Assembly: GCA_009922595.1 (NCBI GenBank)
Contig: RFVC01000007.1
Coordinates: 1-64,000 of the forward strand
Source: Gammaproteobacteria bacterium
GTDB taxonomy: Bacteria > Pseudomonadota > Gammaproteobacteria > Pseudomonadales > Pseudohongiellaceae
DNA: 64,000 nucleotides
Direction of reading: 5' to 3'
Shown here: positions 4,441 through 8,042 of the stretch, in pieces
Position numbering within the stretch: the first letter of the stretch is position 1
Layout: each line of letters opens with the position of its first letter
The notes under the pieces: generated by a model
The model's database searches: none
What the model was told of the DNA's origin: nothing
What the model saw: only the letters and a program-made list of their open reading frames with translations
Position numbers and translations under genes: made by a program

Positions 4441-5454
4441 TCATGATTGCTGGTAAAAAGCCTTTATAGCTTCTGCAGTGGCAAGCACATCGTCCGCGCT
4501 CACCTGCATATGGGTTACTAGACGTATTTCTGACCCCGGTTCAATCAGGATTTCCCTTGAGGCCAGGTGGTCAGTCAATTCCTCCACGCGCCCATCCCGG
4601 GGTTTGAAAAACACCATGTTGGTATGCATCGTCTGCAGGCTGACATCAAGTTCATCGATTTCAGCCAAGGCTTTGCCAAGTAGTGCTGCATTGTCATGAT
4701 CCTCGGCCAGGCGATCGATATTGTTTTCAAGTGCATAAAGCCCCGCGGCGGCAATGATGCCAGCCTGACGCATCCCGCCCCCCAGCATTTTTCGCCAGCG
4801 CCGCCCTGTCTTGATGAAATCGGCTGGCCCGCAAAGCACGGAGCCAACGGGTGCACCAAGCCCCTTGGACAGGCAGATAGAAACACTGTCAAAGAAACGG
4901 GTAATGTCGGTTGCCTTGCAGCCAAGCCTGACCACTGCGTTAAAAAGTCTCGCACCATCGAGGTGGTTGCCAAGCTTATGATCTGAGGCGAGGCTTGTTG
5001 CAGCGCTGATGTATTCCATTGGCAGCACTTTCCCACCGATGGTGTTTTCAAGACACAGCAGTTTCGAAATGGCGTAATGAAAATCATCAGGCTTGATTAC
5101 GGCACGGATTTTTCCCAACGGCATGGTGCCGTCAGGCTCCAATTCAACTGGTTGTGGCTGGATGCTGCCAAGAACAGCGGCACCACCGCCCTCATATTTG
5201 TAGGTATGGGCCTGCTGGCCGACGATATATTCCTCGCCGCGCTGGCAGTGACTGAGAATGCCTACAAGATTGGACTGAGTACCACTGGGGACAAAGAGTC
5301 CGGCTTCCATGCCTGTTATTTCGGCGGCATAAGCTTCAAGTCGGTTAACGGAGGGGTCATCGCCCCACACATCATCCCCTACTTCTGCATCCACCATGAC
5401 CTTACGCATTGCTTGAGTGGGCTTGGTTACCGTGTCGCTGCGCAGGTCTATCAT
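4441..5454 (-). CDS. ltaE: Low-specificity L-threonine aldolase
   Basis: PLP enzyme that cleaves L-threonine or allo-threonine to glycine and acetaldehyde. The start is taken at MIDLRSDTVTKPT because that is the family N-terminus and AAGGA precedes it by a few bases; a longer open frame upstream reads into the preceding gene. The 337 residues are full length. The PLP lysine is K197 in SICLSKGLGAPVGS, and HLDGAR supplies the cofactor-binding aspartate. Only 11 nt separate it from the citramalate synthase-type gene, so the two are probably one operon under the same isoleucine-responsive leader. That pairing makes sense if threonine is diverted to glycine while isoleucine is made from pyruvate (inference). 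Confidence 0.93.
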   Translation of the reverse strand: MIDLRSDTVTKPTQAMRKVMVDAEVGDDVWGDDPSVNRLEAYAAEITGMEAGLFVPSGTQSNLVGILSHCQRGEEYIVGQQAHTYKYEGGGAAVLGSIQPQPVELEPDGTMPLGKIRAVIKPDDFHYAISKLLCLENTIGGKVLPMEYISAATSLASDHKLGNHLDGARLFNAVVRLGCKATDITRFFDSVSICLSKGLGAPVGSVLCGPADFIKTGRRWRKMLGGGMRQAGIIAAAGLYALENNIDRLAEDHDNAALLGKALAEIDELDVSLQTMHTNMVFFKPRDGRVEELTDHLASREILIEPGSEIRLVTHMQVSADDVLATAEAIKAFYQQS

Positions 5455-5465
5455 AGCTTTTCCTT

Positions 5466-7067
5466 TTATTCCTGCCGTAACCGACTGTGCAAGTGGGTGT
5501 TGATCATTCGCAGGGTGGCTACGACGGCAGCATACACCTGGTTGGAATGCACGCCTCGGGTACGCATATTCCTGCCCGAGTTGCCGCGGGCATCGCCGGC
5601 CCAGGTTATGGTACATTCTGTAAGGGCCCCGGTTTTACCCCCTTTGGGAATACGCACCGCATAATCCACAAGCTCGGGCATGTCGAAACTTATCTGGACC
5701 AGGATTTTTTCAAGGGCATTCATGAACGCAGCGTAACCGCCGTTACCACTTCCTGATTCTTGATAGGCCGCACCGTCAATTTCCACTTTGAGGTTAACCT
5801 CTGACTGGCTGTCAAGCTTGCTCTGGATTTCACAGTCCACCAGACGGATATGCTGGTAATCGTTACTTTCAAGTACGTCCGCAATAATGAAGGGTAAATC
5901 ATCTGCCGTGATGGTTTCCTTTGAATCTCCAAGGGTAACGACCCTGTCCAGAACACGCTTGAGGTTTTCATCTGAAAGCGTGATACCCAGTTCTTCTATA
6001 TTTTTCAGCACAGAAGCCTTGCCGCTCAGTTTTCCGAGCGCATAGGTACGCTTGCGATCAAACCGCTCCGGGCTGAGACGTGTTTCATAAAGGCCACCCT
6101 TAACATCACCGTCGGCATGAATACCTGCGGTCTGGGTGAATACATCCTGTCCAAGTATCGGCATGTTGGCCGCGATGTATTTACCGGAGAACTGCTCAAC
6201 CATGACGGATATATGATGCAGGTGACTTTCATCTATACCAGTTTTTATTCCGATCTTGTCGCGCAGGACAACCGTGAGTTCGGCTAATGAGACATTACCG
6301 GCCCGCTCACCGAGACAGTTCATCGTGCAGTGCAGGTTGGTAATGCCGGCACGCACCGCAGCCATGCAGTTGGCCGTGGCCAGGCCGTAATCGTTGTGGG
6401 GGTGAAAATCAAAAACCTGGTCGGGAAAGTTTGATCGCATGTCAGTTAGCGCAGCAAAAACCTCATCGGGACTCATCACGCCCAGCGTGTCAGGGAGCAT
6501 GAAATGCTCGATGCCGCAGTCACCGATCGCCTTCATCAGGTCGAAAACATAGGATTTGTTATCAGCGTAACCGTTGGACCAGTCCTCGAGATAGCAGTTC
6601 ACATGCATGCCCTGCTCTTTGGCATAAGCCACGGTTTTTAGGATGTCAGCAACATGCTCTTCCAGCGTTTTACCCAGCTGGTTGGTACAGTGTTTTTCAC
6701 TGCCCTTAACAAGCAGGTTGATGACTTTGCCACCGGCTTTACGGATCCAGTCAACGCTGCGGTTGTAATCAACAAAACCAAGCACCTCGACACGTTCGTC
6801 CAGTTCATGTTCAGCCGCCCAGTTGATGATATTGCGCAGGGCTTGCTGTTCACCGCTTGAAACCCGTGCAGAGGCCACCTCGATGCGATCCACACCAAGG
6901 GATTCGAGCATGGCCTGGACAATATTCAGCTTTTCATCCGCGGTAAAGGAAACCCCCTGGGTCTGCTCACCATCGCGCAGGGTGGTGTCCATCAGGGCCA
7001 CGTATTCCGGTAATGTCTGTGTCTGGACAGTATTAGTCACTGTTTTCCCATTTCCATGTTTTGTCAT
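5466..7067 (-). CDS. cimA: (R)-citramalate synthase / 2-isopropylmalate synthase family with regulatory domain
   Basis: 533-residue enzyme of the DRE-TIM condensing family. TTLRDGEQTQG is at 28-38, HPHNDYG at 222-228 and GIHADG at 315-320; a C-terminal LeuA-type allosteric domain covers about 400-530. It resembles the Leptospira citramalate synthase closely, as I recall that sequence. Its pyruvate-contacting residues (R16, L81, L104, Y144) align at a constant offset with R31, L96, L119 and Y159. The reaction would be pyruvate plus acetyl-CoA to citramalate, the first step of threonine-independent isoleucine synthesis. The isoleucine-rich leader peptide and attenuator upstream support isoleucine rather than leucine. 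Start choice: the ATG at 7067 lies just after the terminator U-tract without a clear Shine-Dalgarno; GTG at 7040, preceded by GGGA, is an alternative. Residual doubt is a leucine-pathway LeuA. Confidence 0.8.
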   Translation of the reverse strand: MTKHGNGKTVTNTVQTQTLPEYVALMDTTLRDGEQTQGVSFTADEKLNIVQAMLESLGVDRIEVASARVSSGEQQALRNIINWAAEHELDERVEVLGFVDYNRSVDWIRKAGGKVINLLVKGSEKHCTNQLGKTLEEHVADILKTVAYAKEQGMHVNCYLEDWSNGYADNKSYVFDLMKAIGDCGIEHFMLPDTLGVMSPDEVFAALTDMRSNFPDQVFDFHPHNDYGLATANCMAAVRAGITNLHCTMNCLGERAGNVSLAELTVVLRDKIGIKTGIDESHLHHISVMVEQFSGKYIAANMPILGQDVFTQTAGIHADGDVKGGLYETRLSPERFDRKRTYALGKLSGKASVLKNIEELGITLSDENLKRVLDRVVTLGDSKETITADDLPFIIADVLESNDYQHIRLVDCEIQSKLDSQSEVNLKVEIDGAAYQESGSGNGGYAAFMNALEKILVQISFDMPELVDYAVRIPKGGKTGALTECTITWAGDARGNSGRNMRTRGVHSNQVYAAVVATLRMINTHLHSRLRQE

Positions 7068-7076
7068 GGTGCAAAT

Positions 7077-7102
7077 AAAAAACCCGCCTTGAGGCGGGTT
7101 TT
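7077..7102 (-). terminator. Attenuator terminator before the citramalate synthase-type gene
   Basis: On the minus strand AAAACCCGCC, loop TCAA, GGCGGGTTTT form a perfect 10-bp stem, and the T-run at the end of the stem is followed by ATTT. It lies 42 nt after the stop of the isoleucine-rich leader frame and 9 nt before the structural ATG. A terminator in this place makes sense only as a conditional one. Confidence 0.88.
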
Positions 7103-7134
7103 CTAAATCTTTTTGCAAACAATAATCAAAGATT

Positions 7135-7154
7135 CCACCCGCTTTCAGCGCTGG
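7135..7154 (-). promoter_or_regulatory. Antiterminator / pause-hairpin segment of the attenuator
   Basis: This overlaps the leader stop codon. The RNA CCAGCGCUGAAAGCGGGUGG can fold on itself (CCA/UGG and CGCU/AGCG). Its GCGGGU can instead pair with the ACCCGC of the terminator's first arm. These are the segment 1:2, 2:3 and 3:4 alternatives expected of a ribosome-mediated attenuator. A ribosome stalled on the isoleucine codons just upstream would cover segment 1 and favour 2:3, allowing read-through. Confidence 0.7.
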
Positions 7155-7192
7155 ATAATAATGCCCTTGATGATTGTGATTCTTAGGTTCAT
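7145..7192 (-). CDS. Isoleucine-rich attenuator leader peptide
   Basis: A 15-codon reading frame, MNLRITIIKGIIIQR, then TGA. Six of fifteen codons are isoleucine (four ATC, two ATT), including an uninterrupted run of three just before the stop. There is one leucine and no valine, so the expected signal is charged isoleucyl-tRNA alone. The ribosome-binding site is weak (GAG about 11 nt upstream). The frame lies between the arylamine acetyltransferase and the citramalate synthase-type gene and is followed by alternative hairpins and an intrinsic terminator. I do not recognise a described leader with this sequence. Confidence 0.82.
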   Translation of the reverse strand: MNLRITIIKGIIIQR

Positions 7193-7232
7193 GGCGCGCA
7201 GTCTCGGAGGTTTCGCCTGTAAAGTCAAGTTT

Positions 7233-8042
7233 TCAGCGGAGATTGGCAAATTTTTCAGCCAGTAAAGGCATATCAATGCCGGAGCCGATTGAAAGGCGAA
7301 AGGTATTTTCAAGCAGGTCGAGCAGTTCCTCCACGGAAGCTATTTCTCGCTGCGCTTTATCACCCTCCACCGTGTGACGGGTGTATGTATGGTTCTGGAC
7401 AGCATGTCGCTCACGCTCATCTGCCCGCCCGAGCATGAGGTTACTGGTAAATAGGGACTCCGGATGGGAGGAGACGAAATGGTTGGCCATTTCATAATCG
7501 ACCGGGTACTGGGGAACCGTATCGAATACATACATCGCCTTCCAGGCACCATTTAGTAATACGTAAATCGTAAATTCATTCCCATCCTGCCCGATCCTGA
7601 ATTGCTCGTGCGGTGAGTCCTGCACCTTGCCAGTCTCAAGTTTTACGGGACCTGTCATGGTAATGCCGCCAAAGCCTACATCAGCAATCCACTGATCTTG
7701 ATCAAGGCTGACTTTTAGCAGCATATGGGTTCGCGCCATCCGGGTTTTATCAAAGGAACGCCAAACAACCCGGGCCGCATGTTCACTTACCTGGAAACCC
7801 AGCGACCTGAGCACATCGGCGAAAAGCCGATTATGTTCAAAACAGTAGCCACCCCTGCCCTGGTTAACCAGTTTTTCAAAAACATTCTCTGAGCGGATAC
7901 TGACAACACCTTTAAGCCATGCATCCAGATTCTCAAAGCAGATTGCCCTAGGATGCAGTCGGTGCAGCTGCTGCAAGGTCTGCAGGTCTGCTTTTGCAGA
8001 CCCCTCAAAGCCTATCCGATCAAAGTATGCCTGTGTATTCAT
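7233..8042 (-). CDS. Arylamine N-acetyltransferase
   Basis: 269 residues, normal for the family. The catalytic triad is visible: C67 in GRGGYCFEHN, H106 in ARTHMLL and D121 in IADVGFGG. It moves an acetyl group from acetyl-CoA to arylamines, arylhydrazines or related amines in the cytoplasm by a ping-pong mechanism. It ends 40 nt before the isoleucine leader frame on the same strand and is divergent from the EamA transporter. Natural substrate unknown. Full length, no irregularities. Confidence 0.93.
   Translation of the reverse strand: MNTQAYFDRIGFEGSAKADLQTLQQLHRLHPRAICFENLDAWLKGVVSIRSENVFEKLVNQGRGGYCFEHNRLFADVLRSLGFQVSEHAARVVWRSFDKTRMARTHMLLKVSLDQDQWIADVGFGGITMTGPVKLETGKVQDSPHEQFRIGQDGNEFTIYVLLNGAWKAMYVFDTVPQYPVDYEMANHFVSSHPESLFTSNLMLGRADERERHAVQNHTYTRHTVEGDKAQREIASVEELLDLLENTFRLSIGSGIDMPLLAEKFANLR

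Follow-up and report, generated by a model that had tools for sequence, protein, structure and literature searches.

The citramalate synthase gene (cimA) on the minus strand of the window (the whole 64,000-nucleotide stretch of DNA analyzed here) is preceded at positions 7077–7192 by a short segment that combines an isoleucine-rich reading frame with a terminator-like hairpin. The locus thus raises the question of whether expression of cimA responds to isoleucine through a transcription attenuator, as the preliminary description of this DNA had proposed, and how far such a design extends to other genes and other genomes.

Read along the minus strand, the element consists of a −35 box, a −10 box, the leader frame, strand 2, strand 3, a loop, strand 4 with its U tract, and finally cimA. 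The −35 box TTGACT (7223–7228), a position at which all 19 cimA leaders compared below have either TTGACT or TTGACA, is separated by a 17-nt spacer from a weakly matching −10 box, GAGACT (7200–7205), which lies 7 nt 5′ of the ATG. The leader peptide frame, MNLRITIIKGIIIQR (7192–7145, stop included), has 15 codons, six of them for Ile: it opens with ATG AAC CTA AGA, continues with ATC ACA ATC ATC and AAG GGC, and ends with the triple run ATT ATT ATC, followed by CAG CGC and the TGA stop. The triple run had been placed immediately before the stop; the run is indeed present, but a Gln and an Arg codon intervene. An Ile run of two to four codons in frame with the ATG is found in 19 of the 19 cimA leaders. 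Around the stop codon, a 1:2 (pause) hairpin (7135–7154; −5.5 kcal/mol) pairs CCA with TGG and CGCT with AGCG, with CGCT-GAA-AGCG at 7150–7140; its exact pairing varies among relatives. Strand 2, the antiterminator sequence GCGGGT (7142–7137), is complementary to ACCCGC (7099–7094) within strand 3, GAAAACCCGCC (7093–7103), which is common to the antiterminator and the terminator. Strand 4, GGCGGGTTTTT, and the U tract (7077–7088) complete a terminator hairpin of −16.8 kcal/mol, the stem of which (AAAACCCGCC/GGCGGGTTTT) is a perfect 10 bp. The frame, the pause hairpin, the pairing of strand 2, the terminator and the structural gene behind it had all been described correctly.

This observation of a leader element was confirmed. 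A scan for an ATG frame of 8–32 codons with Ile-rich last nine codons and a stem of at least 8 bp with a U tract found a single such element in the window, and the probability of at least six Ile among 14 residues is 1e-4 at the Ile frequency of six window genes (6.1%). A generic promoter and terminator scan of the window reported neither the leader promoter nor the leader terminator, and no Rfam family, T-box included, reached its gathering score anywhere in the window.

The likely start of cimA (5466–7040, minus strand), from comparison with relatives, is the GTG at 7040; an ATG at 7067 is possible, and the TTG at 7118 given in the list of open reading frames is not favored. Among all NCBIfam models the product matched NF042433 best, with 647 bits, short of the curated cut-off of 950 bits. 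It scored 367.6 bits against the structure of the Leptospira catalytic domain (3ble) and 87.1 bits against the regulatory-domain entry 3f6g, and contains a LeuA_dimer domain. Of the 21 positions that we take to make up the active site and pocket of the Leptospira enzyme, 20 are identical, and Val47 is replaced by Ile. Of the known families the product thus most resembles the citramalate synthase of the Leptospira type, and it is predicted to use pyruvate. An ltaE-like gene for a low-specificity threonine aldolase (4441–5454, minus strand; NF007825, 478.6 bits with a cut-off of 312) starts 11 nt past cimA and is probably on the same transcript.

The pyruvate route to isoleucine, which the preliminary description had read from the leader, is backed by the gene content of the genome (98.9% complete), in which none of the five PALP-family proteins is a threonine dehydratase; their best NCBIfam models are those of CysK, CysM, TrpB, ThrC and a relative of D-cysteine desulfhydrase. 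A second, isopropylmalate synthase-like gene is located elsewhere in the genome (L002). Across the eight genera of the family (g1–g8), dehydratase matches (TIGR02079, E 1e-60) were found in none of the 17 genomes of g1 and g8, in four of the five genomes of g2, and in 64 of 77 in the other five genera. Because such matches are absent from g1 and g8, CimA is probably the only source of 2-oxobutyrate there, including in the genome of the window. The dehydratase-like gene of g2 may provide a second source; the leader is still present in that genus.

At E 1e-100, cimA was detected in 95 of the 99 genomes of the family. Seventeen cimA leaders were aligned initially, and two more (G026 and G032) were added later, giving a set of 19 genomes from g1, g2 and g8. 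(G043 and G047, which had no cimA match, and G055, in which the match starts inside the gene at a contig end, were left out.) None of these 19 readable leaders has lost the Ile run, strand 2 or the terminator, and in each the −10 box lies 6–8 nt from the ATG. A covariance model built from the first 17 leaders (R1) and applied with strict filters at E 1e-4 matched every one of the 22 genomes of g1, g2 and g8, and none of the 77 genomes of g3–g7. One of the 22 matches, that in G047, proved on inspection not to be a true leader. Weaker matches (E 0.0002–0.009) were found in six genomes of g3 and g4 (G003, G016, G017, G028, G029 and G037); the match in G037, the only one of the six with a listed place, covers the terminator part alone. 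The expectation that homologous upstream regions would share the design thus held for g1, g2 and g8, but cimA of the other five genera lacks it. At 68 loci with a cimA identity of at most 67% (L046–L113), a simple scan found terminator-like sites in nine, none of them of the ACCCGCC type. (The scan recovered 10 of 11 known leaders, missing L037; L097 had only 43 nt of upstream sequence.) By eye, several of the cimA genes at these loci follow an apparent leuD end.

R1 also matched a second place in the genome of the window (G000:C69:24974–25091, or L159:1975–2092) with 62.9 bits. Behind the leader at this place, MNNTTFYSFFIYIIRR, lies a gene that scored 959.7 bits against TIGR00392, the ileS model, above its cut-off of 621.4. 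An Ile leader with an ileS-like frame behind it is present in 20 genomes, those of the window and 19 relatives, and the identity of the gene was confirmed by family in two of the twenty; a 21st leader, in G043, runs to the contig edge. Of 354 residues in the ileS leaders, 71 are Ile, 46 Phe and 33 Tyr, and sensing of aromatic residues by these leaders is possible. The ileS leaders of g2 (L203, L204, L206, L207 and L211) have TTGCTC instead of TTGACA at the fitted −35 position.

The composition of the cimA leaders is dominated by isoleucine, which accounts for 83 of the 332 residues after the start Met in the 19 leaders, followed by Thr (48), Leu (15) and Val (13); the Ile codons are ATT (59), ATC (21) and ATA (3). 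The footprint of a ribosome reaches 12 nt, counted from the start of the A-site codon. With this value, strand 2 stays accessible when a ribosome stalls at any codon of the longest Ile run and is covered when the ribosome has arrived at the stop codon, in 19 of 19 cimA leaders and in 21 of 21 ileS-type leaders. The antiterminator and the terminator share strand 3 and are mutually exclusive, with the complementarity that this takes. The antiterminator of the window could form, with −13.8 kcal/mol, before strand 4 is made, compared to the −16.8 kcal/mol of the terminator hairpin. Once the full leader is present, the terminator is favored even with a ribosome placed at the Ile run; switching must therefore be kinetic.

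The fitted −10 box lies 6–9 nt from the ATG in all 40 cimA and ileS leaders, and none of the 40 has a Shine–Dalgarno-like motif at −16 to −4. With the usual start of transcription some 7 nt past the −10 box, the AUG would stand at or next to the 5′ end, so that the mRNA of the cimA and ileS leaders is probably leaderless. Such a start would explain why the elements are missed by searches that expect a Shine–Dalgarno site. The ilvA leaders L165, L168, L171 and L176, described below, have no TTGAC box at the usual distance, and the leaderless pattern is not clear there.

R1 was also searched against 390 genomes of the order, and about 30 of the best matches were read. The leader design extends beyond cimA, to ileS here and to ilvA and other genes elsewhere in the order. 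Ile leaders precede ileS in two other families (L164 and L167), and ilvA at L165, L168, L169, L171 and L176, where threonine ammonia-lyase is the best model and two of the five genes exceed its curated cut-off; L152 and L157 are further ilvA leaders by sequence. Others precede a gene for a small P-loop kinase with a remote likeness to “DNA topology modulation protein”, assigned by family, far below the cut-off, at L170 and L172, and by sequence at L144, L145, L150, L151, L153, L174 and L175. At L170:693–1375, L172:2000–2679, L174:2623–3293 and L175:2628–3303, the leaders are of the type RIIIIP-stop and stand before this kinase as a single small gene. Toward the low end of its scores in the order, R1 often picked up plain terminators; inspection of L135, L146, L155, L156 and L158 showed none of the five to be an Ile leader. 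Among 369 genomes drawn from the class, R1 gave five matches at E 1e-6 besides that of the window itself, none with a recognized cimA, ileS or ilvA behind it. One of these, L224, has a Trp-rich frame and no recognized gene behind it, and two, L225 and L226, have by eye Ile-containing frames before an NTF2-like gene. Leaders with both Ile and Thr codons (e.g., IITTI) were seen by eye before an NTF2-like gene at L232, L233, L235, L225 and L226.

Conserved pairing was assessed in an alignment of 57 Ile leaders (A2) that was fitted to the terminator, with strand 2 misaligned in several rows. Compensatory stem changes, which the preliminary description had proposed to look for, were absent from the first 17 cimA leaders, in which RNAalifold returned the terminator only. 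In the 57 leaders they are present in the terminator, with two-sided changes at four of 10 pairs (10 cells), a level reached in none of 500 shuffles. The antiterminator covariation in A2 was not significant, as shuffles reached the number of two-sided cells in 38 of 500 cases and the number of such pairs in 395 of 500. The antiterminator is nevertheless paired in 86.8% of cells, compared to 38–57% when it is slid, and strand 2 pairs with strand 3 at a mean of 7.1 of 8 positions over the 57 leaders, where random 8-mers drawn from these leaders average 2.7. In a table anchored on the strands, which covered 57 of 58 leaders (L169 dropped out, and L044 and the window were given a wrong strand 2), the outer position of strands 2, 3 and 4 reads A, U, A instead of G, C, G in three ileS leaders, and the middle position of the three strands reads U, A, U in three kinase leaders.

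The Rfam family that best matched the window leader was RF00624, “Pseudomonas sRNA P9”, with a score of 30.4 bits (E 5.7e-5 for 241 bases) that falls short of the gathering score, 43; the Pseudomonas rnk leader followed with 30.0 bits. The amino acid leaders of Rfam also remained below their gathering scores at the window (Trp, 26.8 of 41 bits; Leu, 21.9 of 50; Thr, 19.2 of 55; Phe, 25.1 of 55). P9 shares with the window leader an AUU (Ile) run, a hairpin, strand 2 and an ACCCGCC terminator; it differs in that the gene here is cimA, and in that Rfam classes P9 as an sRNA gene and not as a cis-regulatory leader. The P9 threshold was passed in 15 of the 390 genomes of the order, that of the window not among them, and it was passed on Ile leaders before ilvA (L171 and L176) and before the kinase (L170). 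The three best P9 matches in the order (L228, L229 and L230, each starting near position 1501 of the matched strand) overlap Ile frames before ilvA, such as MTSTVLRCQPSIITAIPYLAG, located by eye 6 nt past a −10-like box, and two of the three ilvA proteins behind them pass TIGR01124. Since P9 scores highest in the order on Ile leaders of ilvA, it is probably a cis-acting isoleucine attenuator. A search of the literature under the names of P9 found no paper.

We considered what else the element in the window might be. The upstream acetyltransferase gene (7233–8042), also on the minus strand, stops 40 nt short of the leader, so that the hairpin could be a plain terminator of that gene, with the Ile-rich frame there by chance. 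This is extremely unlikely: none of 40 first-order Markov copies of the window contains such an element, the in-frame Ile run, strand 2 and terminator are kept together in 19 of 19 leaders, and the same design recurs before ileS. The leader might instead sense threonine and isoleucine together, as the thr leader of E. coli does, and Thr is the second most common residue of the cimA leaders (48 of 332). However, the Thr codons lie mostly 5′ of the Ile run by eye, farther from strand 2, only one Thr codon occurs in the leader of the window, and threonine is not a substrate of CimA, all of which make a bivalent attenuator improbable.

The similarity to RF00624, together with the trans functions reported for a leader RNA of S. 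meliloti (PMC7298713), raises a third alternative, namely that the element acts in trans as an sRNA, as P9 is annotated to do, alone or alongside a role in cis. The position before cimA in 19 of 19 genomes, the Ile codons and the way these are phased relative to strand 2 are accounted for by cis attenuation instead, and we regard this alternative as very unlikely, while a role in trans in addition to cis attenuation is possible.

The reading that we favor, with a probability of roughly 0.87, is transcription attenuation of cimA by a translating ribosome, specific for isoleucine; the threonine aldolase gene is probably under the same control. This reading draws on the anatomy and conservation of the element, the in-frame Ile run, the strand geometry and the terminator covariation across related Ile leaders, along with the ileS leader of this genome and the lack of a threonine dehydratase among its five PALP proteins, and it leaves the original proposal largely right, backed by 19 of 19 cimA leaders. 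Transcription would begin at or beside the AUG of the leader, and a ribosome would translate the leader directly. With ample charged tRNA-Ile, the ribosome would reach the stop codon and cover strand 2, leaving strands 3 and 4 to form the terminator, and transcription would stop 5′ of cimA. A shortage of charged tRNA-Ile would stall the ribosome in the Ile run, and strand 2, being free, would pair with strand 3 and prevent the terminator from forming, so that cimA would be transcribed in an isoleucine-dependent read-through. We also think it likely, with less confidence, that the leaders of the order make up a widespread family of isoleucine-only attenuators, many of them leaderless, and constitute an isoleucine regulon of cimA and ileS here, ilvA in others, and the small P-loop kinase gene. 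P9 would be the ilvA branch of this family and not primarily trans-acting, and the sensor would sit on whichever gene makes 2-oxobutyrate for isoleucine.

Citramalate synthase would thereby gain an end-product sensor at the RNA level, tied to the gene of the cognate tRNA synthetase in the same genome, and a function is offered for an Rfam family otherwise known only as a Pseudomonas sRNA. A leader reading isoleucine alone would also be a sign, legible in the genome, of a gene that feeds isoleucine synthesis. The attenuator is classical in mechanism and, as far as searches show, new for citramalate synthase. In the titles, abstract openings and passages retrieved from the literature, no leader-peptide attenuator was linked to citramalate synthase, to ileS or to P9; an earlier mention of Ile leaders, above all before ilvA, is possible, most likely in Vitreschak et al. 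2004.

The principle is that of the E. coli ilvGMEDA, ilvBN and leuABCD operons, for which PMC6123439 describes attenuation by leader peptides rich in the end product. Those leaders contain several branched-chain amino acids or Leu, whereas Ile is dominant in the cimA leader and the gene behind it encodes a citramalate synthase. The predicted position of the start codon at or near the 5′ end has parallels in two leaderless attenuators whose start codon coincides with the 5′ end or is one nucleotide away: C. glutamicum ilvBNC, in which transcription starts one nucleotide before the leader start codon (PMC11857589), and trpL of S. meliloti trpLE(G) (PMC7298713). Both belong to other bacterial groups and other operons, and the C. 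glutamicum leader, unlike that of cimA, senses Ile, Val and Leu codons. The ileS leader resembles the attenuators of pheST, trpS and leuS, synthetase genes that, according to PMC1262725, are under leader peptides of their own amino acid. These are other synthetases, and the ileS genes of that paper carry T-boxes, in Actinobacteria; the likeness to the ileS leader described here lies in the cognate amino acid of the leader.
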